A stretch of DNA of 64,000 bases from an uncultured bacterium (GTDB taxonomy: Bacteria; Verrucomicrobiota; Kiritimatiellia; CAIKKV01; CAIJXV01), in the NCBI GenBank assembly GCA_903824675.1, contig CAIJXV010000005.1, positions 1-64,000 of the forward strand. The letters are read 5' to 3'. The position numbers were made by a program, and so were the translations under genes. A model generated the notes under the pieces. It was not told the origin of the DNA. It ran no database searches and was given only the letters and a program-made list of their open reading frames with translations. Position 1 is the stretch's first letter. Each line of letters opens with the position of its first letter. Of the stretch, positions 1 to 31,956 are shown in pieces.

Positions 1-1
1 C

Positions 2-721
2 GCCTTGCGGCGGCACCCGCAATTCACAGCGGCAAAGGCTGGCGATCCAATCGCGGCCTTCGCGGTTGTGCGGGAACTCACCCGACAGGAGCGCATCACC
101 CGGCTTGCGTCAGAGCACCCCGGCGCGATCATCTGCCCGGTTCTCGCGATCGAACGCACAGGCATCAACATGCTCCCGCTCGCGTTCGCGAAGTTCGCGG
201 GATCGGTCGGCGGTCTGCGGGTTGAAACGGGAATCGTGCAGATCAACAAAACCCACCACACGGATTCGGACGCCATGCACCGGCTCTTGAATCGGCCCGA
301 ATTTGATGGCATAGTCATCCCCGGTCAGGAGTACATCGTCGTTGATGATGTCATCACCAGCGGATCCACGATTCAGGCGTTGCGCCTCTTTTTGGAATCG
401 CACGGCGCGCGGGTTGTGGCCTTCACCGCACTGGCCGGCAGCTTCAACATCATTACGGGATCATCGCTCGAAATCACTCTCACGGAGGAAACGCTTCATG
501 GCCTCGAAACCAAATTCGGCATCGCATACTTCACCCAGTTCTTGCGCCAGCACCACATCGCCCAGGCGCCGGCAGAACTCACCAACTGTCAGGCACGCTA
601 TCTCCTCTCGTTCCGAAACCTTGACTCCATCCGAAGTCGAATCGCTCCGCAGCACAGTCAGGTCCGCCTCGAAGAAACTCGATCAACTTCTCACCAGCAA
701 ATGATGCTGGCTTTTGCGTGA
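2..721 (+). CDS. Phosphoribosyltransferase-domain protein, 5' end outside window
   Basis: The reading frame is open to the left edge, so the true start is not seen; 239 codons are present. The key motif is a PRPP-binding loop, VVDDVITSGST, at about residues 111-121 of the visible part, preceded by an IVIPGQEY strand and followed by a helix starting IQALR. This is the type I phosphoribosyltransferase fold. The N-terminal stretch with HPQFTAAKAGD resembles phosphoribosyltransferase domains found in phage and plasmid proteins, where the substrate is usually unknown. It is encoded opposite to the replication genes that follow and converges on them. The biochemical role is not assigned. The family call is fairly sure; substrate and full length are not. 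Confidence 0.7.
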   Translation, partial: ALRRHPQFTAAKAGDPIAAFAVVRELTRQERITRLASEHPGAIICPVLAIERTGINMLPLAFAKFAGSVGGLRVETGIVQINKTHHTDSDAMHRLLNRPEFDGIVIPGQEYIVVDDVITSGSTIQALRLFLESHGARVVAFTALAGSFNIITGSSLEITLTEETLHGLETKFGIAYFTQFLRQHHIAQAPAELTNCQARYLLSFRNLDSIRSRIAPQHSQVRLEETRSTSHQQMMLAFA

Positions 722-1008
722 TCCGGCTTCGCCGGGTCGGGTCGCCATCGGGCGCACCCGGCCCGGCTTTACGTCTCTTCCGTCTTCCCGTACTCCAGCC
801 CTCTCCCCCATATCCTGGCCCCCCGTGGGGGCCCCCCGCCTGCTTTTACCTGAACAAAATCCCCTCGTAATCAATCGCAACACGCAATTTCACAAGGAGT
901 TAGGCGTAAAACCAGACATATTGGTTTTCAGTGACTACGCCCTGAAACCCTCTCCAAAAACGGCCCGTTCTGCAATGGATACCCCTGTTACCGACGCGCA
1001 CTCCCACC
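722..1008. other. Convergent intergenic region with two hairpins
   Basis: This 287-bp gap separates a plus-strand gene from a converging minus-strand gene. It holds a GC-rich hairpin at 817-833 (7-bp arms, 3-nt loop) and an AT-rich inverted repeat at 908-928 whose arms are AAAACCA and TGGTTTT around 7 bases. Because the second arm ends in a T run on both strands, it could serve as a weak bidirectional terminator. I see no coding signal that fits either strand. Confidence 0.4.
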
Positions 1009-1497
1009 TTACGACCCGCAAACGGTTACCGTTTTCGGCGCATCCCGCATCTTCTTCCGTGCCGTCTTCGCAATGAACAATTCGCGCAGTTCTGGGAACA
1101 ACCGCATCGCCCGCTTGTGCCGAGCTTCTGCTCCGGCAGTAGTGATCCGCTGTTTCCGTGCAATCTTCGGATACGTCAACCCTGTGAACCGCCAACACAC
1201 CACGTCTCGCAACTCCCGAGGAAGACTCAACAACCGGGCAACGAGTTCTTCCATCACGCCTACCGGCATTTTTGTTTCGGTCGCGTCCCCTTCCTCGGGG
1301 AAGGGATCCACGTCGTAGACCGGTTGGGAAGGTCCACCCTTGCCGGGATCATAAACCGGACGGTCCCGGTCAACCTCCATTGTGCGGATCGAAATTTCTC
1401 GCAACTCGCACTTGCCGCAAGGTGTCCGCCGAAAGCGCGTCTTGGCGTACTTACCCACTTCCAAGTCTTCGCGATGTTTGCACTTGTGACATTCCAT
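1009..1497 (-). CDS. Zinc-ribbon protein with C-terminal sigma-like HTH
   Basis: The 162-aa protein starts at the ATG that overlaps the resolvase stop codon (ATGA), which supports translational coupling. The N-terminus has two Cys pairs, MECHKC at residues 1-6 and CGKC at about 27-30, spaced like a zinc ribbon. The C-terminal 60 residues (MEELVARLLSLPRELRDVV then LTYPKIARKQRITTAGAEARHKRAM) have the layout of sigma-70 region 4 or a LuxR-type HTH: a leading helix, a GLTYPKIA turn, then a basic recognition helix. It is the last gene of the replication operon. It could be a phage late-transcription regulator or a terminase-small-subunit-like DNA binder. The HTH is well supported; the role is inference. 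Confidence 0.6.
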   Translation of the reverse strand: MECHKCKHREDLEVGKYAKTRFRRTPCGKCELREISIRTMEVDRDRPVYDPGKGGPSQPVYDVDPFPEEGDATETKMPVGVMEELVARLLSLPRELRDVVCWRFTGLTYPKIARKQRITTAGAEARHKRAMRLFPELRELFIAKTARKKMRDAPKTVTVCGS

Positions 1498-1961
1498 CAG
1501 TCCACCCCTCCATCCGTTCCGGCCATCCCGAATTTCCACGTCAGCAACCCCAGCGCGTCCGCTGTGTCCAGCGTAACGCGCAGATGGGGATACCGACGCG
1601 CCATCAGTTCTCGGATCATCCGCTTTCGGTCCGCTTTTTCCTTCGGCAAAACACCAAGGCTCTTCATCCACACGCACGGCGCCACGGCCTCAAAAGGAAT
1701 TCCAAGCGTGTAGAGTGCCGCTTCGATCTGACCGCAATGCCGAGCGAACTTCGTCGCCGCGTTCGGATGGTCGCCAGGCATCCAGAGCCCGACCTTCTCG
1801 ATCACGCACGCGATCCCCGGCAACCCCGTCGCCAATTCTCGCAACCGGTCCACCATCGCCGTCATCCCTTCCGGAATGCTCTCCGCCCGGACAACTCCAT
1901 CACCATCCAGCCAGGCAAACCCGCCGCTGGCCCCCGGATCGATCGCCAATAATATCTTCAT
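1497..1961 (-). CDS. RuvC-like Holliday junction resolvase (phage type)
   Basis: This 154-aa protein opens with MKILLAIDPGASGG, the first RuvC/RNase H-fold strand carrying the catalytic Asp. An Asp pair near the C-terminus (LDTADALGLL) matches the last acidic motif, and VIEKVG supplies the middle Glu. The length fits phage and bacterial RuvC. The start was chosen at 1961 because GGAGGG lies 8 bases upstream; an in-frame ATG at 1976 lacks this spacing. The gene overlaps the next one by four bases. It would resolve recombination or replication branches of the element. Confident on family. Confidence 0.8.
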   Translation of the reverse strand: MKILLAIDPGASGGFAWLDGDGVVRAESIPEGMTAMVDRLRELATGLPGIACVIEKVGLWMPGDHPNAATKFARHCGQIEAALYTLGIPFEAVAPCVWMKSLGVLPKEKADRKRMIRELMARRYPHLRVTLDTADALGLLTWKFGMAGTDGGVD

Positions 1962-1973
1962 GTTCCAACCCTC

Positions 1974-2249
1974 CATGACGGCATGACGCTTGATTTCGCA
2001 AAATCCCGCCTACCGGCCGGTTTCGCCTTCACGCCGTGTTCTCGATGTTTCACGCTTGCTGATTTCCCCTTATCCCTCCATTTTGAGGAATTAAGTGTCA
2101 TAGTGTCATGCAACTCCGCTTCCCTTTGATTCCCAACGACTTCCGCCATGACGGCACTGCCGTCATGTCCCGTCATGGAAGCGTCATGCCCATGACGCTC
2201 ATGACGCCCATGACGCACCCCATGACACCACCGAAGCACTAGTGTCATG
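1974..2249. repeat. CATGACG / CGTCATG repeat array, candidate origin
   Basis: The hexamer CATGAC or its complement occurs twelve times: at 1974, 1982, 2105, 2147, 2162, 2172, 2183, 2191, 2200, 2209, 2221 and 2244. Most copies extend to CATGACG. Both orientations occur, with the densest cluster at 2147-2249 on a roughly 9-10 base period. The array fills the gap between the resolvase and the primase/helicase gene. A minus-strand frame through it has low-complexity composition and is probably not coding. Iterated sites next to a replication initiator or helicase are typical of origins or binding arrays. Confidence 0.6.
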
Positions 2250-2252
2250 CGT

Positions 2253-4379
2253 TCAGAACGGAACATCAGACACCCCCTCCCGCCCCCAGAATTTCTCGAT
2301 GTCCACCCGCCAGAAACGCGCGGTCATGTTGCGCTCAAAGCGCAGGTATCCGCTGCCCTCCAGCTTGGCGAGCAACCGCCCAATCCGGCTGGGCGTGATG
2401 TCGCGGAGCAGGGGACCAAACCCCTCCACGCCGGCCAACTGCGCCATGAGATCCGTCGCCGTCCCAGCCCATTCCGACGTCTTCTCCGGCAACTGCTTAA
2501 GGAAAGCGCCCAACAACTCCTCGAATTGCGCCGTATCCGAACTCTGCCGCGCTTCGGCCAACAGCGATTCCTCGATATACGGCTTCACCCCATACCGGAC
2601 CGACCCCACGACCTCTTTCGGCATTTCCCAGTCGTACAACCATCGCCCCAGATAGGGCAATTCGCCTGTGATGATCTCCACCACATTCGCGGGAAACTCC
2701 CGTTCCATCGTGCGCACCCGGAACAGACAGACCTTGTCCTGGTTGCTCACGTCCAGCGCCGGCAGGATACGGATGGACTCCGGGTCCAGGTTCGTCGTCA
2801 CGATGATCCGGCCGCACCACTCAACGGTCTGGACCTTCTTGAACTTCTCGTCCGCGCTGAAAATCCGGTTCGCCACCATCTTCTTGAGCAGCGCCGTGTA
2901 ATGCCGGTGCTTCGCCGCATCGGCGAGAGGCGTAACGTCATCCATGGTCCAAAGCGGCATCTCGAAGAAACTGCCGGAAAACTTCGTCTGACCCGTCAGG
3001 TAGTCCGCCGCATCCACATGTCCGCCGACCAGCTTGGACACGATCACGTTCGACAGCAGGTTCTTTCCCTGATCCTTCTCCCCGCAGAGGAAAGTTGCCT
3101 GTCCGGGCAGGAGTGCCCGCCGCCAGCCCGTCTCATAGAAGCGCTTCAGCCACGCCAGGAAAAAATCGAGTTGTTCCTGGGGTTCAAAGAACCCATCCAA
3201 AAATGCCGCGATCCAGGGAAAACCTTCACCCCACTTCAGAGGTCCCGGTGCGGGTTCGATCACCCGCACCGTACTGACATTCAATACGGCCTGACCGCTC
3301 ACGCGGATCAGTCCGATCGGCTTGAGCACCGCCGGTGCCGCGCAAACCACCCGTTTGTTCTCCTGAACCATCCGCAGGGCATGATCCACTTCCGAGCAAC
3401 TTTCACCCCGCGGCACGCTGGCGCTCAAAGCGTGTTTTGACTTCAGCCAAAGCCGCATATCTTCCCGGCCAAGTGACTGGAATCGCCCGTCGTCCCCCTG
3501 TCGCCAATACTCCCGCCCATCAAACCAAAGCGTCGCGATCACCCGGCCCAGCCGGTCCGCCTCATATTCCTCGACGAACCGTCTCCCGAGAATCGCGCCC
3601 CAGGGCACGAATGCCGATGGCCCGGTGAAACATTGCATCCCGCTCTCGCGCACGACGGCCGATGTCTCGTTATCCGCCGTAAAGTCCCAAAACCGGACCC
3701 CGCGCGCCCCGAGTTCGAACGACCCCTGCCACCTCCCCGGATACTGCCGGACAACCTCCTCAGCGACCTTCTCGACAGGAATCGCCGTATGCAGCTTGTC
3801 CCACCGCATCCCTTCGCCGCTTTGCGCCATCCATTGCCAGACCAGGTTACGGGGGACCACATCCTCGCTCAACCGAACCCATTCAACCCCGGCTTCGTAA
3901 TACGTCGCCGGGTTGCAGAGTGCCTCCTCATCCAAACCCGGAAAGATCGCGCCGACCTTCATCTTCTTCCGAAAGACCTTGAGGAACGCCTTCGCCGCCT
4001 CATTCGACGGCACACACACCGGCTCCTCGAACGCCCATATCAGCCGGGCCCCCCCGGAGAAAGTCCGGCTTACCCACTGCGGCCTGAACTCCACCTTCAC
4101 CTTTTCCAACACCGCCGCCCGCTCTTCGACCGTGATCGAGGCGTCGTAATCCGCCACGACCCCGTGCAGCACCACGGCCTTGTTGCTCTCCGTCACCCGC
4201 AAGAGCGGGTCCAGGCCCTCGAAGGCGGAGTAGTGCAAATGCTTCGTGCTGGGTTTCTTCCGATACTCCAGGAACGCATCCTTATCCGAGAATCCTTCCA
4301 TCGCCCGGTTCGGGAAGGTCCACGGCTCCGCTATGCGGGCCGTCTGACTAACCAGGTTGTCGATCGCGTAGAGCTTCAT
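2253..4379 (-). CDS. Primase/SF3-type helicase replication protein
   Basis: This 708-aa protein combines an N-terminal primase-polymerase-like region with a C-terminal superfamily 3 helicase-like ATPase. In the N-terminal third, VVADYDAS and FSGGARLIWAFEEP resemble the catalytic Asp pair and basic strand of archaeo-eukaryotic primases. The ATPase has a Walker A, CGEKDQGKN (about residue 425), a Walker B in PLWTMDDV, and sensor 1 in RIIVTTNLD. The layout resembles the DUF5906/VapE helicases of phages and islands. GGAGG sits 6 bases before the ATG at 4379. The protein would initiate and unwind element DNA, and the repeat array directly downstream is a plausible target. The ATPase is clear; the primase part is less so. 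Confidence 0.75.
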   Translation of the reverse strand: MKLYAIDNLVSQTARIAEPWTFPNRAMEGFSDKDAFLEYRKKPSTKHLHYSAFEGLDPLLRVTESNKAVVLHGVVADYDASITVEERAAVLEKVKVEFRPQWVSRTFSGGARLIWAFEEPVCVPSNEAAKAFLKVFRKKMKVGAIFPGLDEEALCNPATYYEAGVEWVRLSEDVVPRNLVWQWMAQSGEGMRWDKLHTAIPVEKVAEEVVRQYPGRWQGSFELGARGVRFWDFTADNETSAVVRESGMQCFTGPSAFVPWGAILGRRFVEEYEADRLGRVIATLWFDGREYWRQGDDGRFQSLGREDMRLWLKSKHALSASVPRGESCSEVDHALRMVQENKRVVCAAPAVLKPIGLIRVSGQAVLNVSTVRVIEPAPGPLKWGEGFPWIAAFLDGFFEPQEQLDFFLAWLKRFYETGWRRALLPGQATFLCGEKDQGKNLLSNVIVSKLVGGHVDAADYLTGQTKFSGSFFEMPLWTMDDVTPLADAAKHRHYTALLKKMVANRIFSADEKFKKVQTVEWCGRIIVTTNLDPESIRILPALDVSNQDKVCLFRVRTMEREFPANVVEIITGELPYLGRWLYDWEMPKEVVGSVRYGVKPYIEESLLAEARQSSDTAQFEELLGAFLKQLPEKTSEWAGTATDLMAQLAGVEGFGPLLRDITPSRIGRLLAKLEGSGYLRFERNMTARFWRVDIEKFWGREGVSDVPF

Positions 4380-4417
4380 CCATTACCTCCGGTTCATCCT
4401 TCATCCATTGCCCGGCG

Positions 4418-6262
4418 CTACTTCTGGTAACGCGGCGCAATGGCGCTTTCCACCGCCAGCGGCAAACGCTTCATCCATGCCGGCGGCGTTCTCATGATTC
4501 CTTCGATCTCCCGCCGGACCTCCTCCGCTCGGTCCGCCGGAGCGTGACAAATCACCTCGTCATGCACATGGAAGACGATCTCGATTCCCGCGTCCCGCAG
4601 CCGCAGGAGGATGTCCGCGAAAACCTCACGCGCCGTTCCCTGGACAAGGTTCTCCACCAACTTCGCCCCATACATCCGCTCGCGGTTACCACCACGCTCC
4701 GTGCAGGCCGAATAGCTCCGCGTCTTCGGGTCATATCCCACGTCGAAGTAACGCACGATTCGGCCCGAGGGGAGTTCCATCTCGAAATGCTTGTCCGTCC
4801 GGGCCGCTTCCGCGATGGCCCGGTCGAACCGCGCCCATAATCGGGTGATGAGCGGGTTCATCTTCCGGAAATCCTTCACCGTCCGCCGGCATTCCTCCGG
4901 TGAAAGGTCCAACCCGGCCAAATTCTTCGCCACCTTCGCAAAACGATCCGCCGAACATCCGTACCCGAGGCCCAGCACCCGGGCCTTTGCCAGCGCATAC
5001 AATTTGGGATCGGCCTTCTTCAGCGGCAGGTCCGGACCGTTTTGCCCGTTCTGTCCGTTTCCCATACCTTCCACCTCCCAACTCACACCTTCCACCCGCC
5101 CCGGCGGCCATCCCATCGTCTCCCGCGCGTGGGCTTCATAGAGGGGCATGCCATTGCCCAGGTCGGCGAGCAGTCGCTCGTTGCCGCAAAGGTACGCCAG
5201 GATTCGCGGCTCGATCTGTGCCAGGTCGGCGATCACGAACACGTGGCCCGGTTTGGCCACGATGCAGTTCCGGAGTGATACCCCGAAAATGTCCTCACGC
5301 GGCAGGTTCTGGAGGTTCACCAGGTCGCCGGACCACCGCCCGGTGTGCGGCGCTCCGCAATACCGCAGGATTGCCGGGATCGTTCCATCCTCGCGGCGCA
5401 TGGCCCGCATCAACTCCAACTTTTTCAACAGGATGTTCGTCCGGCGCCAGATTCGGATCGCGCCGACAAACGGATACTTCTCACCGTACTGATCTTCCCA
5501 CTCAACGCATTCCTCGCTGTCCTTCGCCAGCGATGCCGGAGCGGGAATGCCAAGTTCCCGGCACTTCTCCCGCACGGCGATGGACGAGAGGGGCGGCTTG
5601 CCATCTTCCGCCCAGGGGATTTTCTGCTCCGCTTCCCAGTTCAGTCGTTTCAGCCCGTCAATGGATCGGTCCAATAAGGCCCAATCCACCCACACACCCC
5701 GGTTCGCCATCTGCAACGTCATCAAAGCGAGGTTCCGCTCATGCAGCGGCCACTCGCGTCCATAACGCTTCCATATCTCCAAACACGCCCGCGCATCGGC
5801 CAAACCGGCCTTGCGGACGATCTCCAGGTCGTAGGCCATCAACTCATTCGCGTGTTTGCCCTTCATCATGTCGCGATAACTCTTCGGCACGTCCATCCCG
5901 AGCAATGCCCGCGCCGCACCTGCCAAGTTCCGCGCCGCCTGTAGGAACACCGCCAGGTTAGCCGTACAGTACCAATGCGGCATCTCCGGTGTGCTCACGC
6001 CCGGCAAAGTGCCCCGCAACTTAGCCCAAACCACCGCATCGAAGAGGACGTTATGCGAGACCCATACGCATCCATCGATCCGCTCCCAGGGGGCGTCCTT
6101 TGGTTCACCGACCCATTCAAAAGGCCGATCCTCCCGGTCCTTCCCGCATATTGCTACCTGGTAACACTCGAAACGCGGATCCTCGACATACGCCCACGGC
6201 CCCGCGTCCGTCACCGCGTAGTCCTTCGCCCAATACGTTTCAAAATCGATTGCCACAGTCAT
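4418..6262 (-). CDS. Family A DNA polymerase (phage-type, with 3'-5' exonuclease)
   Basis: The 614-aa protein begins with MTVAIDFETYW, the DxE motif of a DnaQ/DEDD proofreading exonuclease; SHNVLFDAVVW fits a later exonuclease motif. The polymerase domain follows: motif A ADLAQIEPRILAYLCGN (about residue 350), motif B around YGCSADRFAK, and motif C HVHDEV near the C-terminus. No 5' nuclease domain is present, as in phage DNA polymerases. The start at 6262 has GGAGG 6 bases upstream; an upstream in-frame codon at 6319 adds a non-homologous stretch. It sits next to the primase/helicase and should be the replicative polymerase of the element. Confidence 0.9.
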   Translation of the reverse strand: MTVAIDFETYWAKDYAVTDAGPWAYVEDPRFECYQVAICGKDREDRPFEWVGEPKDAPWERIDGCVWVSHNVLFDAVVWAKLRGTLPGVSTPEMPHWYCTANLAVFLQAARNLAGAARALLGMDVPKSYRDMMKGKHANELMAYDLEIVRKAGLADARACLEIWKRYGREWPLHERNLALMTLQMANRGVWVDWALLDRSIDGLKRLNWEAEQKIPWAEDGKPPLSSIAVREKCRELGIPAPASLAKDSEECVEWEDQYGEKYPFVGAIRIWRRTNILLKKLELMRAMRREDGTIPAILRYCGAPHTGRWSGDLVNLQNLPREDIFGVSLRNCIVAKPGHVFVIADLAQIEPRILAYLCGNERLLADLGNGMPLYEAHARETMGWPPGRVEGVSWEVEGMGNGQNGQNGPDLPLKKADPKLYALAKARVLGLGYGCSADRFAKVAKNLAGLDLSPEECRRTVKDFRKMNPLITRLWARFDRAIAEAARTDKHFEMELPSGRIVRYFDVGYDPKTRSYSACTERGGNRERMYGAKLVENLVQGTAREVFADILLRLRDAGIEIVFHVHDEVICHAPADRAEEVRREIEGIMRTPPAWMKRLPLAVESAIAPRYQK

Positions 6263-6384
6263 GGTGATCCTCCATCTATCTTCAGTTCCCAGTCCGTGCG
6301 GGCATCGGCCGGTGTGCACCCCGGCCTTCGCCTTTACGGATGTCTGATCACTGAAAACTGTTCACTGTCTGGACTCACTCACCG

Positions 6385-7149
6385 CTACGCGGTGTAGACC
6401 CCCGCCAGGAACTTCTGGAACGCTTCGTCCGTCTTCCCGCTCGCGCGGAAACACGGAACGAAATACATCCCCTTCGGTCCCTGCCGCTTGGCAACCGATA
6501 CTTGCCACACCCCAGTCCGGTACCCGTCCCGGAGGAATGTCGCCCGTGCCGTCAGGACGGTCCGGCCTGCGCTCGTGAACGCCGACTTGCTCAAAGTCCA
6601 CACGGCGGCGGCATACGCCTTGCCGTTGAACTGGAAGGGGAACAGTGACGTATCCGCGCCTTCCGGCGCTTCCAACGCGCAGATCACATCCAGCCTGGGT
6701 GCCCACGGCGGCGCTTCGCGCTTGCCGCTATCGCTATCCCGCCAATCGATCCAGCCCCCAAGGGCCTTCACCTCGTCCAACGTGTCAACGACTTGGCCCA
6801 TCTCGTCGGACCCGAACTCGGTGTTCTCCTGGTAACGCTTCTGCGCGTGCAGGATCACCATGTTCAGCGGTGCCAAACCATCCTTCCAGAGCACCTGCTC
6901 CTTCTGGAACACGATCACCCCCGGCCCGAACTGGTCGCCCAGTTCGCCGACCTTCTGCGTCAGGTTGATTCGAGGCAGAACCAGGTCATCCCCCTGAATC
7001 TCGCCCACCAGATCGTCATACTGCCCACGCACCGCCAGAGCCTGCCCTGAGCCAGCCGTGGGCTTCGCTTCGCGGACCGCTACCGCTGTCGCCGTTGGCG
7101 CAACGGAGGGTTCTTTACTCTCAACCGATTCATTGAAACTTAACTTCAC
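6385..7149 (-). CDS. Phage replication-module protein of unknown function
   Basis: A GTG at 7149 with GAGGAG about 8 bases upstream gives 254 aa; ATG codons at 7170 and 7200 are alternatives. After a low-complexity N-terminus comes LVLPRINLTQKVGELGDQFGPGVIVF, a stretch I associate with phage single-strand-DNA-handling or recombination-associated proteins, but I cannot name the family with certainty. The middle carries APPWAPRLDVICALE and the C-terminus KGMYFVPCFRASGKTDEAF. There are no membrane segments. Its place between the nuclease and polymerase genes argues for a replication or recombination role. Part of the N-terminus is encoded by a repeat also present in the neighbouring nuclease gene (7071-7087). 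Confidence 0.55.
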   Translation of the reverse strand: MKLSFNESVESKEPSVAPTATAVAVREAKPTAGSGQALAVRGQYDDLVGEIQGDDLVLPRINLTQKVGELGDQFGPGVIVFQKEQVLWKDGLAPLNMVILHAQKRYQENTEFGSDEMGQVVDTLDEVKALGGWIDWRDSDSGKREAPPWAPRLDVICALEAPEGADTSLFPFQFNGKAYAAAVWTLSKSAFTSAGRTVLTARATFLRDGYRTGVWQVSVAKRQGPKGMYFVPCFRASGKTDEAFQKFLAGVYTA

Positions 7150-7345
7150 TGTCTCTTCTCCTCTGCGCATTCTGCGCACTGATAACTGTTCACTGATCAC
7201 TGTTTACTGTCTTCACCCCCCGCGCACCCGCGCGAGGTAGTACATCTCGGCTCCCGTTGCCAGGATGCCCATATCCGTCAGCCTTTCGTTTAGCGCCTCC
7301 TTTTGTTTCGTTTTTTCCCCGCGCTTCGCGCGGACCGCTACCGCT
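7071..7345. repeat. 17-bp repeat in two adjacent genes
   Basis: The sequence CGCGGACCGCTACCGCT occurs at 7071-7087 and again at 7329-7345, each preceded by a CTTCG-rich stretch. Both copies lie inside coding sequence, and both are read in the frame that gives AVAVR on the minus strand. It looks like a small dispersed repeat that tolerates insertion into genes. Confidence 0.45.
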
Positions 7346-8298
7346 TCCTCCAACTTCGCCACACTCACCGGACCGCACACGGCCAGGAAATCCTCAAGCG
7401 TCAACTCGTCCTTCATCGCCGCCCACGCCGCCAGGATGTCCTTGATCTCCCGTTTCCCCGACTTCGACTTCAACTCGAAGCCCGGAATCGTTTGCCCGGC
7501 CTCCGTCACGAACTGCATGTTGTGCGCCTTCACACTCTCAACCCATTTTTCAAGCACCAACGCCAGTCGGCGTCCGATGGAATGCTCCTCAGGTGTGGTC
7601 CAGGTGGAGGGATGGAATTGGGACGGGATTTCCAGCACTGCGTCGCTGTAGTTCTGCGCAACGACCAGCGCCTTGCTGTACAACGCCGGACACGTTCCCC
7701 GATTCCCGCAGTACCGGCAGATTTCGTCGGTTGCATTCAGCAGGTCCTCGCGACCCTCGTCGAACAACGCCGCCCTCCGCGCCAGGATCGTCTCGATCCG
7801 CGTCTCCAACCGCGGAATGTCCGACCGCGTGAACTCGCCCCGGCTGATCTCGTTGCAACGCGGCGAAACAAACAAGATGACCACCCGATCCATGTCGGCC
7901 ATACCGTGGAGGATCGCCAGCGCATACGCTTGCCCCTGGTTATTAATCTCCGCGTCATCCACCGGATTCCACCCGAACTTCCAGTCGATCGCGTAGACCG
8001 TCCGGCCCTTCATGATCAGTCGGTCCACGATCCCGCGCCGCTTGATGATCGGCACCGGGAAGTCCTGCTCCCGCAGATCGCGCTGCGCGCCAGGCAGAAG
8101 GGGAGCCACCACACCCAGGCACTTCTCGACCAGTTCCCGCTGGTCGTCGTTCAGGCCGGCCATGTCGCCGGTCTCGCACGCCTTGTGCAGCCGTTTCCCT
8201 TCGTCCGCGAACGCCTGATCCCCCTCCTTGTCATTCGCGAATCCCGGACAGATCTCCACGTACTTCAACCCGCTCGCGGTAATGTCAGTTCTTTTCAT
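7213..8298 (-). CDS. DUF2800 / RecB-like PD-(D/E)XK nuclease
   Basis: This 361-aa protein carries the nuclease core GIVDRLIMKGRTVYAIDWKFG at about residues 88-109, in which the Asp of VD, the Asp of AIDWK and the Lys form the PD-(D/E)XK set. A Cys cluster near residue 210, CRYCGNRGTCP, recalls the iron-sulfur-binding cysteines of Cas4/AddB-type nucleases. The N-terminal MKRTDITASGLKYVEICPG is typical of the DUF2800 phage family. It probably acts as a recombination exonuclease of the element. A 17-bp repeat is embedded in its 3' part. Confidence 0.8.
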   Translation of the reverse strand: MKRTDITASGLKYVEICPGFANDKEGDQAFADEGKRLHKACETGDMAGLNDDQRELVEKCLGVVAPLLPGAQRDLREQDFPVPIIKRRGIVDRLIMKGRTVYAIDWKFGWNPVDDAEINNQGQAYALAILHGMADMDRVVILFVSPRCNEISRGEFTRSDIPRLETRIETILARRAALFDEGREDLLNATDEICRYCGNRGTCPALYSKALVVAQNYSDAVLEIPSQFHPSTWTTPEEHSIGRRLALVLEKWVESVKAHNMQFVTEAGQTIPGFELKSKSGKREIKDILAAWAAMKDELTLEDFLAVCGPVSVAKLEEAVAVRAKRGEKTKQKEALNERLTDMGILATGAEMYYLARVRGG

Positions 8299-8308
8299 GA
8301 TTTTGCCC

Positions 8309-8512
8309 TCATTCGCGGATGAGTTTGCTCATCCAGAAAACCCCAAGCACAATCGGCACATCGCCGAAATGACCCTTCGTTTGCAGCATGTAGACATAGC
8401 CCCCGATGACCATCGCTGTGCCGCAAGTCATCCTGAAGAAAAGCCACAAGAACTTCATAAACTCCAAATGCCGTCTCATCGTCTCGTTCAACTTGTCCTG
8501 ATCACCATTCAT
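8309..8512 (-). CDS. Small two-helix membrane protein
   Basis: A 67-aa protein with a charged N-terminus (MNGDQDKLNETMRRHLEFMK) followed by two hydrophobic segments, about residues 20-43 and 51-65, and a basic end. It lies 10 bases upstream of the nuclease gene and 62 bases downstream of the helicase gene, on the same strand. No family is recognised. In phage early operons such small membrane proteins are common, but nothing in the sequence tells its job. Confidence 0.5.
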   Translation of the reverse strand: MNGDQDKLNETMRRHLEFMKFLWLFFRMTCGTAMVIGGYVYMLQTKGHFGDVPIVLGVFWMSKLIRE

Positions 8513-8574
8513 CGCAACCGTCCTTTCCGCACATTACGTGCATTTACTGTTTCACAACTGCTCGACACGCATCT

Positions 8575-9948
8575 TCATGCCGGCACCACCTCTCTGCCGC
8601 CGTCCAGACCCGCCGCAAGGTCGCCGTCGTTGAGGACAGCCATATTTGCGAGCTTCGCCCGGACCGCCTCGCACGCCCGCTCCTCCACCGTCCCCGCCGC
8701 AAACACAATCCGCTGCACACTCTTGCTCCTGGCATTCGCCCGATGCACCCGCCCCAGCGCCTGCTTCAACTGCACCGCACTGAACCCCGGCGAGATCAAC
8801 GTCAAACGCGGGAACTCCCCCCTCAGATCCTGTAACCCATCCAGCCCTTCACTGGCCGTCGCCAGATTCACCGCCACGATCCGGACCTCATCCGCGCCAA
8901 ATCGGCGCAGGATGTTGGCCCGTTCATCCATGGGCGTCTCGCCCTCGATCACCGGCAGGTCCGGTAAGAGCTTCCGCAACGTCGCCAATGTCGCGCGGAA
9001 GTTCACAAAGATCACCACCGACTGGCCTTCCTCGACGCCATCGGTCGCCATCTCCGCCAGCCCCGGCGCCTTGAGAAGCTCCGCCGCTTGCCTCGCCCTC
9101 AGCGCCACCACCAGTGGGTTCAAAAGTCCGTGTTCGTCCGTTGTGTCCGTGGCATTCAGAACGCCGGCGTAGGCCTCCGCCACCTCATCCCCGAAGTCAT
9201 ACGCCTCCGCTGTCACCAGCGTCGGGGGAAAAGCGTCACCCAGGTCCGCGATCCGGACTCTCGTGCCGCGCGGGGGAATGCCATTTCCACGGAAGATGCC
9301 GTCATGCAGACGCGCAAGACCCTGGCGGGCCCGCGCAATCTGGAGTGCCCGCCGACTGCCATCCCGAGCCGAACCCTTTGGGAATTCAATCCCACCCCAG
9401 AAATTCCGCACGCATCCATGGGTTGAACAGAACCGCCAGAAAGTCTCCCCGTCATCGTGCAATCGCAGCACAAAGCCCAGCGCCCGTAGTTTCAGCGGCG
9501 ACTCCGCCGCCGTCGCCGAAAGGCATATCGTGGGGATTCCATAACGGCGGACCGCCGCAAGCATCTTGGAATTCAGAGAATCCTGCCCAGCACATCGGTG
9601 GACCTCATCGAGTACGAGCAGGGTCCCGACCGGCAGCCGCCAGGATGCCGTCCGAGTTCGTCCGTGCGTTGTCCAAGTCAGAAAAGGCGTCCGCCCCGCT
9701 CGAATCCCCTCGTAGTTCAGAACGAAAACCGGATCAGGCAAACCCCAGTCGCGGCACGCCTTGCGCCAGACCGGGATCAGGTTCTTCGGACACACGATCG
9801 CCGGTCGCAGCCCCAGTTCTTTGCAGACCGCGCACGCCACATGCGTCTTGCCGACGCCCGTGTCGCTCGCATCAAGGCCCACGCAATGCGTGCGTACCGC
9901 TGCGGCCAGCCGCTCAAAGGAAGCAAGTTGATAGGGGAGCAGGTTCAC
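8575..9948 (-). CDS. SNF2-like DEAD/DEAH-box helicase
   Basis: The 457-aa protein starts with NLLPYQLASFERL, the entry motif of SNF2 helicases. Walker A is DTGVGKTHVA (about residue 30) and Walker B is LVLDEVHRC (about 112). The C-terminal RecA domain carries SVVIFVNFRATL, the LATASEGLDGLQ motif V and the ALGRVHRANA motif VI with its arginines. GTG is the start because it overlaps the stop of the HTH gene upstream (GTGA). The size fits the short phage SNF2 proteins that accompany DUF2800 nucleases. Likely a recombination or replication helicase of the element. Confidence 0.85.
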   Translation of the reverse strand: MNLLPYQLASFERLAAAVRTHCVGLDASDTGVGKTHVACAVCKELGLRPAIVCPKNLIPVWRKACRDWGLPDPVFVLNYEGIRAGRTPFLTWTTHGRTRTASWRLPVGTLLVLDEVHRCAGQDSLNSKMLAAVRRYGIPTICLSATAAESPLKLRALGFVLRLHDDGETFWRFCSTHGCVRNFWGGIEFPKGSARDGSRRALQIARARQGLARLHDGIFRGNGIPPRGTRVRIADLGDAFPPTLVTAEAYDFGDEVAEAYAGVLNATDTTDEHGLLNPLVVALRARQAAELLKAPGLAEMATDGVEEGQSVVIFVNFRATLATLRKLLPDLPVIEGETPMDERANILRRFGADEVRIVAVNLATASEGLDGLQDLRGEFPRLTLISPGFSAVQLKQALGRVHRANARSKSVQRIVFAAGTVEERACEAVRAKLANMAVLNDGDLAAGLDGGREVVPA

Positions 9949-10526
9949 GCGACACCGTCCGATTCCGCGATAGCGGAATCGCCGCGCCGTAGTTCGCCTG
10001 GGTGAGCAGGCGTCGAAGGCGGGCCAACAAACCGGCCCGCAGCATGATCGTAATCAAATTCTCGGAAAAGATCGCCGACCGCGTTCTCGTCCCCTTCATC
10101 CACCAGCGCCTTCAATTGCTGAAAGCGCGGATCGCCCGTTCTGTCCGTTTCCGTCCGTTTTTGCCTTCTGCCTACTGCCTTCCGCCTACTCGCCTTCTTG
10201 GCCACCTGGCCCCGCCGCGATTTCTTGCCACTGGAACCGAACTCTCCAGCCGCCAGCGCCACCAGGTCCTCGCGCCGCACTCGGAATGACCCCGGAAAGA
10301 GTTCAACTTTTGCGATAGTTCCGGCTTGAATGATGCGCCACAACGTCGACCTGCTGACGCCCAGGAATTCCGAAGCCGCATTCATCCCCAGGAGAAGGGG
10401 GCCCTTGCCCTGAACCGTGCTCCGCTCTGGTTCAGGGTCACCCCGTAGGACCTTAAGGGCTGATTCCTTCCGTTCTGGCGTAGCCGCCACCACCGCCGCG
10501 AGGAGATCATTCGTGAGATCACTCAT
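9945..10526 (-). CDS. Excisionase-like HTH DNA-binding protein
   Basis: The 193-aa protein has an excisionase/MerR-type winged HTH at about residues 45-90: GMNAASEFLGVSRSTLWRIIQAGTIAKVELFPGSFRVRREDL. A Lys/Arg-rich linker follows, then a 35-residue motif (DPRFQQLKALVDEGDENAVGDLF and on) that recurs in the neighbouring 73-aa protein. The last residues are encoded by a palindromic repeat also found at the end of that neighbour. The gene overlaps its upstream partner by 8 bases and the helicase downstream by 4. It may regulate the operon or assist excision; the integrase lies 20 kb away. Confidence 0.65.
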   Translation of the reverse strand: MSDLTNDLLAAVVAATPERKESALKVLRGDPEPERSTVQGKGPLLLGMNAASEFLGVSRSTLWRIIQAGTIAKVELFPGSFRVRREDLVALAAGEFGSSGKKSRRGQVAKKASRRKAVGRRQKRTETDRTGDPRFQQLKALVDEGDENAVGDLFREFDYDHAAGRFVGPPSTPAHPGELRRGDSAIAESDGVA

Positions 10527-10592
10527 CCCTCACCTCCGATTCCGCGACGGAATCGCCGCGCCGTAGCCCTGCAGAGCGGGCGTAGGCGGGCC
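9959..10592. repeat. Two REP-like palindromic repeats at adjacent gene ends
   Basis: Copy A spans about 9959-10025 and copy B about 10537-10592. Both contain the inverted repeat GATTCCGC / GGAATC, the stretch GCCGCGCCGTAG, a second small hairpin (GCCTG/CAGGC in A, GCCC/GGGC in B), and end in AGGCGGGCC. The hairpin arms differ in sequence but still pair. Each copy sits at the 3' end of a gene and is read in the same frame, giving both proteins a LRRGDS tail. Confidence 0.6.
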
Positions 10593-10740
10593 GGTGAAAA
10601 TCGAAGTGGTACTCCAGCCATAGGTCATGCACCGCCTCCTCGTTTCCTTCTGAGGCCAAGTGCAAGAGTTCGTAGTAGCGAGGGTTGCGCTTCGTCGTTT
10701 TATGTTTTTGAGCTATTTTTTCTTTGTTACTGATTGCCAC
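10519..10740 (-). CDS. Small protein sharing a motif with the HTH gene product
   Basis: A 73-aa protein starting at GTG 10740, with AGGAG 7 bases upstream. A Lys-rich N-terminus leads into NPRYYELLHLASEGNEEAVHD and LWLEYHFDFH, which aligns with DPRFQQLKALVDEGDENAVGD and LFREFDYDH in the next gene. The tail LRRGDSVAESEVRDE comes from the shared palindromic repeat. It has no known family. It looks like the first gene of the replication operon and may be a partner or decoy of the HTH protein. Confidence 0.5.
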   Translation of the reverse strand: MAISNKEKIAQKHKTTKRNPRYYELLHLASEGNEEAVHDLWLEYHFDFHRPAYARSAGLRRGDSVAESEVRDE

Positions 10741-10810
10741 GATGCTTCTCCTGTTTATTCACAGGCGAGACCATCTCGCTGTGTGGCAGGAACGCAGGAT
10801 TTCATCGGGC

Positions 10811-10845
10811 AATAAAAAAGGGGTTGCGATTGCTCGCAACCCCTT
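10811..10845 (-). terminator. Rho-independent terminator
   Basis: A perfect 12-bp stem (10818-10829 with 10834-10845, loop TTGC) is followed on the minus strand by a T-rich run (10811-10817). It ends the transcript of the 857-aa protein gene, whose stop is 25 bases upstream, and insulates the replication operon from it. Confidence 0.85.
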
Positions 10846-10869
10846 GGCAGGCAGACACTTTCAGTGATT

Positions 10870-13443
10870 TCAGGCAGATTTCATCGGAAAGCGTTTCATG
10901 TATTTCTTGGACTCTTCTTCGATACCGGGCTTCGTTTTATGGAAGAATGCCTTGTCAGCGGCGGATGCAGCCAAATAAGCCCCAATCGTAGTGTCACGGT
11001 CGGTGGGGTCCTCGGCCCAGTCACGTTCAACTGGGGAGAGTTCCTCTGGATGGGTTCTTCCTTCGTCGTTTTCGTGACCGCCGCTTTTGGTGAACCGGAT
11101 TGCTGGGCCTGATGCGTCACAGGGCGGAAGGCCGTTCTCGCGCAATTTTATATTGATCTCTGAAACGCGCCGGCTGAGAGTCGGCGTGCTGTTTACGATG
11201 CCGGATTGCCGCAGCGAAGGGAGCGCGTCTTTCTGGCTTCCGTCGGCATTGCGAACGGCGCGCCAAATCGCCTGTTCCTCTACCGTCAAGATGTCGGCAA
11301 TCTTGTTTTGTATCTCGAGGGCCAAGGCCTCAGGAACCAACCGCGCCTCAGCAAGTTCGGTCTGCAAAAACGGAACTCCGCGCACATGACGCTGCACGAT
11401 CTCTACACCCGCTCCTAACTTTACGATGGCGCCGGGCAAAAGACCGGTCGTGTTCTTAATAATCTGCACATCAGCATGTATCGCGTCCAGCTTCGCTGCT
11501 TCGACAGCCGTTCCAGGGGCCTGTTGCCCGTGGGTGCCAGGTGCAGTTTGTGCCGCAACCACAGGCAATGTGGCGCGCCGTTCCTTCCCATACTTCGTAA
11601 AACTTATCGCAAGCGCAGCGGGGTCGCCTTTGACCGCCAGCGTGATTTCCTTGCCAGGACCAAGATCCACACCAGGCTCGGCGCTTATGCCAGGCAATTC
11701 ATCTGCCGGCACCAACCGAATTGATCGGGCCGAACCAATGCCCACATTGGTAATCACAATCTTCCCGTTCTGTCGCACCGGAGTCATCAATGGCCACAGG
11801 GGGAGTCCAAAATGTCTCAACACCTCCGCATCGAGCGCTGCCAGATCATTCACGGGGTCCCTCAGCACCTTGTTCCCATCCCCGACAGACATCGGTACTT
11901 TCCCCTCTATGATAAGCCGTAGCGATACCGGGCATTCCGCATGATTTGCTGGCAACGCCTTGGCGGCATCAACGCACCAGTTAAACTTGTTCAAAAGCAG
12001 GCCGACGTCTCCTACCACGCTCGTCAGTCTCGCATGAACCTGGTCCATTAGATTCGCCACCACCTTCATTCGTAGACCAAGGGTCATGCTGTCAAGTCGC
12101 CCACGCCATTGCTGCACAGAGATTTCGTCGGTATCGGCATCCACATCCCAACCATCCTTCTCTCGTTCCCCCGCCCAGGCCAGAAATGCCCCCTCCACCT
12201 GCGCCCGCGTTTCGGCGGGTACAAAATGCAGTTTCGCGCACACGATGGCCGCGGTAATCGCCCCGAGACGTGACAACCTTGCGTCAAGTCGGCACACATC
12301 CAGCAGTTTAGCAGCCATCAGCGGATTTCCGGTAGCCATGTCGTCCAGCAGACTCTTGACATGCACGCTCACCACATCAGTCAAAAGCAGTTGGTCAATA
12401 GCCAATAGATGCGGTCCCCATTCGGTTTTGGGTTCGTTCAAGTTCAACCCTGCAAAGAACTCCTCCCTGCTCGCGGGCTTGTTCAGTACCTTCCGGAATG
12501 ACGCGAGGTCAACCGTCTCTGGAAATAGATCCGGTTTCGTATGCAAAAACTCCAGTGAATCCTGGTTTTCCTGGTAGTAATTTTCATCAAGTATGGAGTC
12601 CCTGGTCACATTGACTATCCGATAAAATGCTTCCGCCTGTTTATCTGGTTTCGTTGTTCCAACCCGGAGAATGAGTTTTGGAAACCGTAATCGCAGGGCG
12701 CCGGAAAGCCCTCTGATGAAGAAACGCACCCGTACAGGCACTGAAAGGTCACTGGATTTTACTTCGATGTCCGAGTCAAAGGACTCGATTTTCACCTGTT
12801 TATCGGCCCAGACCTCTTTCATTCGTGGGGCATCGGGATCGATGTGTTCCCGGCTCTGGAAGAGCGCATGATCAATACTGCGGTACTCCTTGCCGGAAGG
12901 GTCCGTAAATCGCACCATAAAGAGACGGCTTACAAAACGGCTGAAGCATAAATTACGCAATTTCGCTAAGTCGAATTGTTGCTTGGTGACGGCGTTTGGC
13001 GGGATTCCTAAATAAACATTATTGAACTTCTCCAGTTTTTCTTCCGAGATCCTCCGTCCGCCGCCCGTGGTGATGAACCACAGCAACCCGTCTCTGCCTC
13101 GATAGTACCGTATGGACGCGGTTTCCACGACTACATCCTTCCAGGAGTACCACAGCGGCGTTCGTTCCTCGTAATTGTAAGTGCGCACCGTGAGTTGATC
13201 CTGAAGCCCGAGCACAGCGGAACATCCACCTTCCTCTGAGGAGGAACTGCGGGAAAATACACCAAACCGAGTGGTAGGGGAAAGCCATGCCGCCCCTAAG
13301 CATGCATCCAACTTGGCAAAATCAAACGGCACTGTCGTCTGATAGGACTGAATCGTGATCTCACGCTGGTCGAGGATTCCCTCGGCGCGTGGCGCTATCT
13401 CCACCGATTCAATATGGTCTTTCGGTTCGTATCGGATGGCCAT
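10870..13443 (-). CDS. Unrecognised 857-aa protein with C-terminal HTH-like segment
   Basis: TAGGAG lies 6 bases before the ATG, and a strong terminator follows the stop, so this is a monocistronic gene. I recognise no family. There is no signal peptide or membrane segment. The first 250 residues look beta-rich (FGVFSRSSSSEEGGC, TPLWYSWKDVVVETASIRYYRG). A middle part after about residue 550 is Ala/Val-rich. Near residues 720-800, LTVEEQAIWRAVRN and PTLSRRVSEINIKLRENGLPP have the look of a winged helix. The gene separates the replication module from restriction genes, which suggests cargo, perhaps defence, but that is position only. Confidence 0.6.
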   Translation of the reverse strand: MAIRYEPKDHIESVEIAPRAEGILDQREITIQSYQTTVPFDFAKLDACLGAAWLSPTTRFGVFSRSSSSEEGGCSAVLGLQDQLTVRTYNYEERTPLWYSWKDVVVETASIRYYRGRDGLLWFITTGGGRRISEEKLEKFNNVYLGIPPNAVTKQQFDLAKLRNLCFSRFVSRLFMVRFTDPSGKEYRSIDHALFQSREHIDPDAPRMKEVWADKQVKIESFDSDIEVKSSDLSVPVRVRFFIRGLSGALRLRFPKLILRVGTTKPDKQAEAFYRIVNVTRDSILDENYYQENQDSLEFLHTKPDLFPETVDLASFRKVLNKPASREEFFAGLNLNEPKTEWGPHLLAIDQLLLTDVVSVHVKSLLDDMATGNPLMAAKLLDVCRLDARLSRLGAITAAIVCAKLHFVPAETRAQVEGAFLAWAGEREKDGWDVDADTDEISVQQWRGRLDSMTLGLRMKVVANLMDQVHARLTSVVGDVGLLLNKFNWCVDAAKALPANHAECPVSLRLIIEGKVPMSVGDGNKVLRDPVNDLAALDAEVLRHFGLPLWPLMTPVRQNGKIVITNVGIGSARSIRLVPADELPGISAEPGVDLGPGKEITLAVKGDPAALAISFTKYGKERRATLPVVAAQTAPGTHGQQAPGTAVEAAKLDAIHADVQIIKNTTGLLPGAIVKLGAGVEIVQRHVRGVPFLQTELAEARLVPEALALEIQNKIADILTVEEQAIWRAVRNADGSQKDALPSLRQSGIVNSTPTLSRRVSEINIKLRENGLPPCDASGPAIRFTKSGGHENDEGRTHPEELSPVERDWAEDPTDRDTTIGAYLAASAADKAFFHKTKPGIEEESKKYMKRFPMKSA

Positions 13444-14154: not shown

Positions 14155-15354
14155 ATGCAAAACAAGTCACTGAATCGAAACCTGCACGCCGCGAGGGCGG
14201 CCAAGCAGGACGAGTTCTACACCCAGTACGTCGACATCCAGAAAGAGGTCGAGGCTTACCTGGAGTTCGACCGCGACACCTTCCGCGGCAAGGTCGTCTA
14301 TTGCAACTGCGACGACCCCTTCGAGAGCAACTTCTTCAAGTACTTCGCCGCCAACTTCAACAAGCTCGGCCTCAACAAACTCGTCACCACCAGCTACGAC
14401 GGCTCCCCCATCGCCGGCCAACTCACGTTATTCCCGGAATATAACGAGGGGAATGGCAAGCGCAAGAAGCCCAAAGCGCTCGCCGTCACCCTCGACCGTG
14501 TCAAAGACGAGGACGGAGACGGCGCTGCGAACGTGACCGACGTCGAGCTTTTCCTCAAACGGAACAAGGCCGCCAGGATACCGCTGAAAGGAGACGACAA
14601 ATACCCCGGGGGCGATTTCCGCAGCACCGAGTGCATCGCACTCCTGAAACAGGCGGACATTGTCGTCACCAACCCGCCCTTCTCCCTCTTCCGCGAATAC
14701 GTGGCCCAACTTATGGGGCACGGAAAGAAGTTCATCATCATCGGCCCCAAGAACGCTATCACCTACAAGGAGATATTTTCGCTTATCAAGGACACAAAAC
14801 TATGGCTCGGGACAGGATTCTCCAATGGTAACGCGTACTTCAGTATTCCTGCCGGGAGTAGTCGGGAGTTTGCGGACGGCGTCTATGACGAGAGCACGGG
14901 ACTCGTCAAGTTTCGCAATGTGGGCTGGTTCACAAACCTCGACCACGGACGCCGCCACCAGGAGCTGCCCCTCATGACCATGTCAGACAACTTGAAGTTC
15001 AGCAAGCACAAGGAGATCAAGGGCAAGGCGGCCTACGACCGGTACGACAATTACGACGCCATCGAGGTGCCCTTCACTGACGCGATCCCAAGCGACTACG
15101 TAGGTGCCATGGGCGTCCCGATCACTTTCCTTGATAGGTACAACCCCGACCAGTTTGAGATTTTGGGAATTACCGACCGTGACAATAACTCCGGCGTCAA
15201 AACTAAGGAATACACCGAGGCAGACGTACCGAATTGTGGCGATCTTAATCGCCGAGGAGTTGTCCGAGTTGGCAACGAGTATAAGCCAATTTACGCTCGC
15301 CTCATCATCCGCCACCGCCGCGTTGACCGGCGCGCAAGAGGGACGATAAAGTGA
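14155..15354 (+). CDS. EcoRI-type adenine-specific DNA methyltransferase
   Basis: The 399-aa protein matches the EcoRI-family adenine methyltransferase layout: an N-terminal [19 protein letters not shown] and [13 protein letters not shown], the SAM-side motif [20 protein letters not shown] (about residues 40-60), and the catalytic motif [14 protein letters not shown] (about 170-185). It methylates adenine in a sequence-specific site. The stop codon overlaps the GTG start of the DUF262-HNH gene (GTGA), so the two are translated as a pair. The protein has its own complete fold and is not part of the broken type III system that surrounds it. Confidence 0.9.
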
Positions 15355-16517
15355 ATACCAAGCTGAGAACCGACATCACCGTCGCCGACATATGCGCCGG
15401 GTTTGTGTACAACCAGTTGGAGGGCAAAGGGCTGTTCGGGTTGGGAGGGAAGCTAACCATCCAGCCGGAGTACCAACGCAACTACATCTATGCGGATGGT
15501 GGCGGGAAGAAAGAGCAAGCGGTTATCGAATCGCTCCTAAAGGGGTATCCGCTGGGACTGATCTATTTCAACAAAGTTGCGAAGGACAAGTTCGAGGTGC
15601 TGGACGGCCAGCAACGTATCACCAGTATCGGACGGTTCGTTACGAACAAGTTCGCGATCATGGATAACGCCAATCCGAAGAACTTCGACAGCCTGCCCGC
15701 CGACCAGCGGACCAAGATTCTCCGCTCGGGATTGCTGATTTACGAGTGCGAGGGGACCGAGACCGAGATCAAGCAGTGGTTCGAGACGATCAACATCGCG
15801 GGGGTGCCGCTCAATCCCCAAGAGCTCTTGAATGCCATTTACTCGGGGCCGTTCGTGACGTTGGCGAAGGCCGAGTTTAGCAACAGCCAGAACGCGAACA
15901 TCCAGAAATGGAGCGCGTACGTCAGGGGCAGCGCCAACCGGCAGGAGTTCTTGGAGCGGGCGCTGGACTGGGTGAGCAAGGGCGATAACGGCGGCTACAT
16001 GAGCGCTCATCGCAATGACAACAACATCAATGAGCTCAAGACCTACTTCAACAGCGTGATCGACTGGGTTTCGACCGTCTTCATTGACGTTCACAAGGAA
16101 ATGCAGGGATTGGAGTGGGGCAGACTTTACGAGGAGTATCACGGCAAGTCCTACGATCCGAAGAAGATGTCCATCGATGTGAATGGGCTCGCCGCCGATT
16201 CGTATGTGACGAATCGAAAAGGGATCTTCGAGTATCTCTTAGGCGGGTCGGTAGACAAAAAGTTGTTGGCGGTTCGGGTGTTCGATGAAAAGGTAAAGCG
16301 CGTCGCCTACGCTAAGCAGAAGCAAGCAGCCGAGGACAAGGGCAAGTCCAACTGTCCGCTCTGCGCGACAGGGACCAACGCGAACAAGAGCAGAATCTAT
16401 AAGTTCGAGGAAATGGACGCCGACCACGTTTCCGCGTGGAGCAAAGGCGGCGACAGTTCGGCCAAGAACTGCCAGATGCTCTGCATTACCCACAATCGGG
16501 CCAAAGGTAATCGATAG
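15351..16517 (+). CDS. DUF262 (GmrSD/ParB-like) and HNH endonuclease
   Basis: The 388-aa protein starts at a GTG that overlaps the methyltransferase stop. The N-terminal DUF262 domain shows [11 protein letters not shown] (about residues 38-48) and [17 protein letters not shown] (about 79-95), the DGQQR nucleotide-binding signature. The C-terminal 70 residues form an HNH nuclease: two Cys in CPLCATGT, then [19 protein letters not shown], then [14 protein letters not shown] with a final Cys and His. Such proteins cut DNA, often in an NTP- or modification-dependent way. Paired with an EcoRI-type methyltransferase it probably forms a complete restriction-modification unit. Confidence 0.88.

Positions 16518-31687: not shown

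Positions 31688-31956
<269 letters not shown>

Follow-up and report, generated by a model that had tools for sequence, protein, structure and literature searches.

Near one end of the stretch of DNA analysed here (64 kb in all, referred to as the window), a short intergenic region behind a primase-helicase gene is crowded with copies of a single six-base word. What is this array for? Our preferred answer, to which we give a probability of about 78%, is that it is the origin from which an integrated phage-like element replicates, and that its repeats are iterons bound by the C-terminal winged helix of the adjoining primase-helicase; the case is built from sequence comparison and predicted structures. 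The array and the genes around it are as follows.

1974-2249, no strand assigned: putative iteron array, 12 CATGAC in both orientations, the GTCATG units mostly reading G/C-C-G-T-C-A-T-G
CATGAC on the plus strand (seven copies): starts at 1974, 1982, 2147, 2191, 2200, 2209 and 2221
CATGAC on the minus strand (five copies): starts at 2105, 2162, 2172, 2183 and 2244
5-721, plus strand: phosphoribosyltransferase-like gene at the contig start (Pfam Pribosyltran, PHROG 22413)
1009-1497, minus strand: sigma-70 region-4-like protein (its Pfam match falls short of the cut-off in the window and passes it in a relative, L013)
1497-1961, minus strand: RuvC-like Holliday junction resolvase (PHROG 1770)
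2253-4379, minus strand: P0001, a 708-aa primase-SF3 helicase and candidate initiator (Pfam DUF5906, above cut-off)
4418-6319, minus strand: family A DNA polymerase
6385-7200, minus strand: 271-aa protein in the replication operon, function unassigned
7213-8298, minus strand: DUF2800/PD-(D/E)XK exonuclease
8575-9948, minus strand: SF2 helicase
9945-10526, minus strand: HTH_17 excisionase-like protein

An exact search of both strands of the 64 kb found CATGAC 46 times, 12 of them within 1974-2249, which agrees with the count of a sequence-only reading of the window. That reading had put the chance expectation below one, and the frequency in the rest of the window indeed predicts 0.15 copies in 276 bp (Poisson probability of 12 copies, ∼2e-19). 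A 13th copy lies at 2323, inside the primase gene. When 276-bp windows were taken every 20 bases along the 64 kb, with low-complexity words left out, no other 6-mer exceeded five copies. The start-to-start steps within the array are 8, 123, 42, 15, 10, 11, 8, 9, 9, 12 and 23; the densely packed part that had been described exists (2147-2226), with steps of 8-15 rather than a strict period of 9-10 bases. Wide dispersal of the array over the host genome had been named as an observation that would speak against an origin, and was not seen: in the 4,243,228-base genome a spaced triple CATGAC pattern matched the array only (three overlapping matches), the reversed control pattern gave 0 matches in the same 4.24 Mb, and no second such cluster was found. 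Likewise, a 311-bp array region searched against its own genome returned a single match, itself. The flanking genes had been named correctly as resolvase and primase/helicase. The array lies directly 3′ of the latter, all genes assigned between 1009 and 10526 are on the minus strand, and the element is cut by the contig end.

Relatives of the primase were present in 7 of 97 near genomes, in 17 of 345 from the class and in 24 of 387 sampled across the phylum (each count includes the genome of the window). They occupy 16 genome-contig loci, including Pontiella, Pontiellaceae, Verrucomicrobiaceae and an Akkermansia MAG, and occur in IMG/VR contigs as well, while a phage collection searched with the primase protein gave no match. 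One relative, G091, is a prophage with genes for terminase (TerL), portal, protease and major head protein. The family was assembled via the primase, so every array counted accompanies one. It comprises 29 distinct members, the window included, that have a complete primase end and enough DNA behind it, after removal of duplicates (> 98.5% identical in the last 250 residues), of truncated primases (L005, L007, L008, L051, L063, L065 and L066) and of L062 (91 bp downstream); a short C-terminal fragment, L083, which carries GGACAC eight times, was also kept out of the counts.

An array was scored where the top 6-mer occurred at least five times in the 400 bp behind the primase stop. By this measure 24 of the 29 members, window included, have one, as against 116 of 2788 other 400-bp windows from 39 loci. 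Among three members added later, L098 reaches five copies, L097 four and L099 three, which brings the number with an array immediately 3′ of the primase-helicase gene, the placement of SaPI/PICI type, to 25 of 32. Four of the members below threshold (L035, L009, L033 and L015) have 8-9 TGAC units per 450 bp (base shuffles gave 3.3-3.4, and were as high in 9-42 of 2000), and in the fifth, L038, the repeats come after a small ORF. Only two of nine distant SF3-only relatives, counted apart, reach five copies. The words themselves differ from the CATGAC of the window (ATGACG, GCGTCA, CGTCAC, ATGTCA, CGTCAG, GTGACA, GGACAC, AGTGCC and others; at unit level, for example GTGACGT, GCGTCAT, GGACAC and GCGGCAC). 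When each sequence was scanned with its own unit, a single cluster was found in 14 of 14 stretches of 7-64 kb. Short repeats of one sequence are clustered beside the candidate initiator gene, as expected of an iteron origin. Two genomes of the same taxonomic order as the window, G010 and G014, have 83% identical primases; their arrays are not visible because each contig breaks off within that gene, and neither genome gave a RuvC-like match.

Some other repeats were noted along the way. High-copy TTCCAA/TGGAAA words in the control windows of L034, L035 and L055, and GCATAC inside an ORF of L042, are other features and were rejected as arrays of this kind. The TTCCAA/TGGAAA arrays lie downstream of the sigma4-like gene in L034 (7800-8200) and L035 (9000-9400), with up to 11-12 copies per 400 bp, and are perhaps a packaging or regulatory site. 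The GGACAC arrays of L046, L048, L050 and L061 have alternating purine-pyrimidine tracts between their clusters (GTGCGTGCGCGC-like, then ATACATAT-like), which could favour Z-DNA or melting.

Repeat sequence varies among the members, and layout is largely kept. The units of 10 out of 18 close relatives occupy almost the same places behind the primase stop: some of ∼3, 11 and 18, then an AT-rich tract, units on the other strand at ∼126 and 135, and further units at ∼168-170 and 180. Some other relatives keep the internal spacing, shifted as a block (e.g. L073 and L011), and the arrays of L057, L064 and L059 are irregular, displaced or interrupted. Read in the direction of this layout, the repeats fall into two main classes, G-T-G-A-C-(G/A)-T and G-C-G-T-C-A-(T/G). 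Between the classes a G and a C one base apart hold their position, and the bases between and around them change; viewed as TGAC, the difference looks like a flip of every repeat, and viewed within the layout it affects alternate positions. The units of the window are of the second kind (G-C-G-T-C-A-T type), in clusters that are more numerous than those of the relatives and differ from them in spacing and order. Across six regions profiled, AT fractions were 0.80-0.87 in the Pontiella-type L010, L013 and L034, and ≤ 0.63 in the window, L046 and L060. GC skew, which had been suggested as a check on the origin, gave no consistent signal: among two relatives' prophages and four viral contig stretches a cumulative maximum lay within ∼1 kb of the array in three of the six, and not in the other three or in the window.

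What could read these repeats? The AlphaFold2 model of P0001 (mean pLDDT 77.9, pTM 0.47) has the SF3 helicase core fold shared with D5-like helicases, in line with the DUF5906 match, and ends in a predicted winged helix. The best fold match of its helicase half is the C-terminal region of NrS-1 PrimPol (Foldseek 2.2e-10; Z 17-18) at 11-15% sequence identity; other fold matches are the SaPI5 primase-helicase (Z 13.8), PriRep1 with dsDNA (Z 11.7) and poxvirus D5. By sequence, a search of the PDB with the primase profile gave nothing better than E 0.46. The N-terminal half, where the fold comparison barely covers residues 1-270, has conserved D77-Y-D79 and S108-G-G..R112, which may correspond to the hhDhD and other PrimPol catalytic motifs. 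Folded alone, the winged helix gave weak matches to PadR-like, Z-alpha, Cdt1 and other domains (Foldseek E 0.01 and weaker; Z ≤ 7.6). Its parts map to the DNA as follows.

2286-2474, minus strand: predicted C-terminal winged-helix domain, primase residues 636-698 (AlphaFold2 models)
2319-2327, minus strand: wing-tip codons 685-687 (M, T, A), at the tip of the hairpin with strands 679-684 and 687-693 in the model

As a separate observation, the 13th CATGAC (2323-2328) falls in these wing-tip codons of the primase itself (N-M-T-A).

A link between wing and repeat was first noticed by eye and then formalized, by assigning the 18 close relatives to classes according to which dinucleotide most often follows TGAC. 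When the primase tree was built with the winged helix left out, the TGACGC class required five changes, and well supported branches force every one of them. Throughout the protein only two columns have no residue in common between the classes. They sit two residues apart at the wing tip, one H versus D/E/G/K/N/R and the other T versus K/R (window equivalents 685 and 687). Both columns agree with class in five of five independent pairs (sign test p 0.0625, the minimum possible with five). Leaving gaps out, 700 columns could be tested and these are the only 2 that separate the classes; labels assigned at random, which ignore relatedness, gave two or more in 7 of 2000 trials; counting gaps as letters led to the same outcome (8 of 3000). 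Among 2100 testable nucleotide columns 2 separate the classes, and as both are non-synonymous, linkage alone or joint transfer as a block is not a likely cause; no synonymous nucleotide column tracks class, and linkage was rejected as the cause of the association. The repeat sequence changes in step with two wing-tip residues across related phages. The window itself fits neither class: its M685 and A687 share with one of them only the lack of K/R at the second position, and form no H-x-T.

These results bear on the alternative that the array consists of operators through which one of the element's transcription regulators, either the sigma-70 region-4-like or the HTH protein, controls the downstream genes. 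The array does precede the sigma4-like gene in relatives and the RuvC-like gene in the window, and the AT-rich tract could hold a promoter. Yet the downstream gene varies among members (RuvC-like, sigma4-like or weakly HTH-like) while the array stays, and each of the 14 stretches scanned has one cluster only. The sigma-like neighbour also served as a control for the wing, and 0 of its 139 testable columns track iteron class in 15 rows (3 of the 18, L056, L057 and L064, had no match, and L011 and L015 were cut short). We regard operators as unlikely.

The location of the tracking residues speaks to a second alternative, in which the repeats mark places on a single-stranded template where the PrimPol domain begins a primer, in the way that NrS-1 PrimPol uses TTTGGTTA and GTGA. 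Several relatives carry GTGAC, and according to the available text of PMC8718748 NrS-1 PrimPol prefers GTGA/GTGG and ORF904 recognizes GTG. CATGAC and GTCATG, however, are without GTG, and the residues that track the repeats belong to the winged helix rather than to the N-terminal half expected to hold the primase. As the function of the array this is very improbable, although a primer-site role and an origin role could coexist.

Iteron arrays can serve as copy-number control loci, and the array might accordingly be a site for packaging, partition or copy number (incompatibility), to which the primase would bind for control only. It adjoins and tracks the initiator, however, and in the G091 prophage the terminase gene lies ∼3.5 kb further on; we find a pure control site barely plausible. 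That the array acts as RNA, its inverted units folding the transcript into hairpins that regulate expression, is scarcely credible: the transcript does fold better than all 200 shuffles (z -4.76), but strong folding is expected because the repeats stand in both orientations, positions 1-11000 contain no Rfam family, and it is a DNA-binding wing that tracks the repeat sequence.

The suggestion of origin iterons beside an initiator or helicase, made in the sequence-only reading, is therefore strengthened: the array accompanies the primase-helicase in most members, occurs once per element scanned and tracks the wing. In the chain of binding, melting, loading and origin firing that we infer for this origin, the predicted winged helix of the primase-helicase would bind the iterons, several copies of the protein would assemble on the repeat clusters and melt the adjacent DNA, and the enzyme would load itself as an SF3 ring helicase and make the primers from which the family A polymerase of the element starts DNA synthesis. 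Iteron sequence would drift between elements with the layout kept, because, as we propose, the wing of each initiator must match its own iterons. Among closely related initiators two wing residues switch together with three alternating iteron bases (G-T-G-A-C-G-T versus G-C-G-T-C-A-T, at the same positions), and these paired switches make a recognition code directly testable.

The organization of array and primase-helicase appears to resemble the rep-ori units of SaPIs and PICIs, and would extend that layout to phage-like elements of Verrucomicrobiota. In the accessible text of PMC7581432 and PMC6092414, SaPI/PICI origins adjoin rep on its 3′ side and consist of an AT-rich region flanked by two sets of iterons, and SaPI Reps recognize the iterons just downstream of rep via their C-terminal domain; PMC6092414, in the part available, calls this rep-ori organization unique to PICIs. 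The likeness to these descriptions is in the short iterons directly 3′ of the primase-helicase/Rep gene. In contrast to them, the present family occurs in phage-like elements of Verrucomicrobiota that encode a family A polymerase themselves, its close relatives have three clusters at kept spacing, an ORF bridges the putative origin (see below), and the primase matches DUF5906, with NrS-1 as its nearest fold. We do not file the element as a PICI, a satellite needing a helper phage, because G091 carries terminase, portal, protease and head genes.

P4 alpha is a primase-helicase that recognizes short repeats, with P4 ori and crr apart; primase-helicase plus short repeats is also what it shares with the present system. 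It is cited as a parallel to PICIs in the available part of PMC6092414. Another parallel is SCCmec, where, following the accessible text of PMC7581432, the D5-like helicase Cch2 binds AAGTG direct repeats in the intergenic region behind its gene through its C-terminal domain, and the operon includes an A-family polymerase (CCPol). That system differs in having three iterons only and in making primers with the polymerase and a small partner protein, and phage head genes are not mentioned in this portion of PMC7581432. NrS-1 PrimPol, the best fold match of the helicase half, is likewise a phage enzyme with primase and ring-helicase domains; the available text of PMC8718748 mentions no iteron array beside its gene. 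For PLE, the consulted part of PMC8263062 describes iterons that can change and so escape a phage nuclease that mimics the initiator, and by analogy escape of this kind is a possible driver, one among others, of iteron turnover here.

A conserved protein encoded across the array had been named as a finding that would argue against an origin. An ORF does span it, in the window and in most members:

1958-2266, minus strand: bridge ORF of 102 codons in the +1 frame; a GGAGGGGG stretch precedes its ATG, which lies 11 nt ahead of the primase stop

Its stop codon, TGA, overlaps the start of the RuvC-like gene (ATGA). We counted as a bridge any ATG ORF whose start is no more than 40 nt from the primase stop and which extends at least 200 nt beyond that stop. 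Such an ORF is present in 24 of the 29 members, related members being counted separately, versus 3.7 expected from dinucleotide-keeping shuffles: in the window (1 of 1; 0.31 expected), in 13 of 18 of the Pontiella type (2.1 expected) and in 10 of 10 of the GGACAC and related group (1.3 expected). The misses are L056 (199 nt), L011 and L054 (GTG start), L064 and L057. Fourteen of the 24 bridge ORFs end in ATGA, where the next ORF, of 77-198 codons, starts, and a Shine-Dalgarno core was found at 15 of the 24.

The encoded sequence is another matter. In seven close pairs, picked from fifteen for little overlap, substitutions in the bridge ORF summed to 84/97/91 over the three codon positions, as against 66/41/190 for the last 300 nt of the primase in the identical pairs. 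The other eight pairs showed no clear third-position excess in the bridge ORF, so that codon positions in the fifteen pairs revealed no amino-acid-level purifying selection, and many of its indels are not multiples of three. With substitutions even over codon positions and non-triplet indels, the amino-acid sequence is not conserved, and the outcome of this check on the origin is mixed. The frame is kept open; the peptide is not. From this combination we infer a translated bridge across the origin that would keep the operon coupled, and the ORF may be translated to carry ribosomes across. The question that it raises is how transcription and translation of a phage operon pass through an origin that lies within that operon. 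A broader proposal has two parts: that the origin would lie inside a translated ORF of free sequence, selected only for its start beside the primase stop (often with a ribosome-binding site), its open frame over the iterons and often its stop at the start of the following gene, by which ribosomes would pass over the origin and downstream genes would stay coupled, and that wing and iterons, co-changing within a kept geometry, would form a natural series for an SF3 wing-base recognition code. We put this proposal at even odds. No description of the array or of an origin-bridging ORF was found in the literature searched, a body of text mostly without subscription papers and the original SaPI origin papers.

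Further observations concern the rest of the window and its genome. A tRNA-Gly(CCC) at 31803-31877 adjoins a phage-type integrase gene (30336-31679), and the tRNA region has an identical copy of 79 bp near a contig start elsewhere in the same genome (C62:877-955); the tRNA-Gly/integrase pair may be the attachment site of an element. Three genes on other contigs of this genome (C26, C98 and C118; L129-L131; 4.5-6.4 kb) are 62-63% identical to the Mu-like portal of G091, and the host seems to carry several related structural modules. A second module, on contig C56 (L134), comprises a sigma4-like gene with 41% identity, an ORF of 633 aa that by eye looks like the polymerase, and another ORF containing a stretch like the start of the HTH_17 protein of the window; in its first 12 kb no word reaches six copies per 300 bp. 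Within the window, an EcoRI-type adenine methylase gene followed by a GmrSD/HNH nuclease gene (14155-16517) is a probable restriction or defence pair, and 20806-26790 encodes a 1994-aa RHS-repeat protein with a transglutaminase-like domain.
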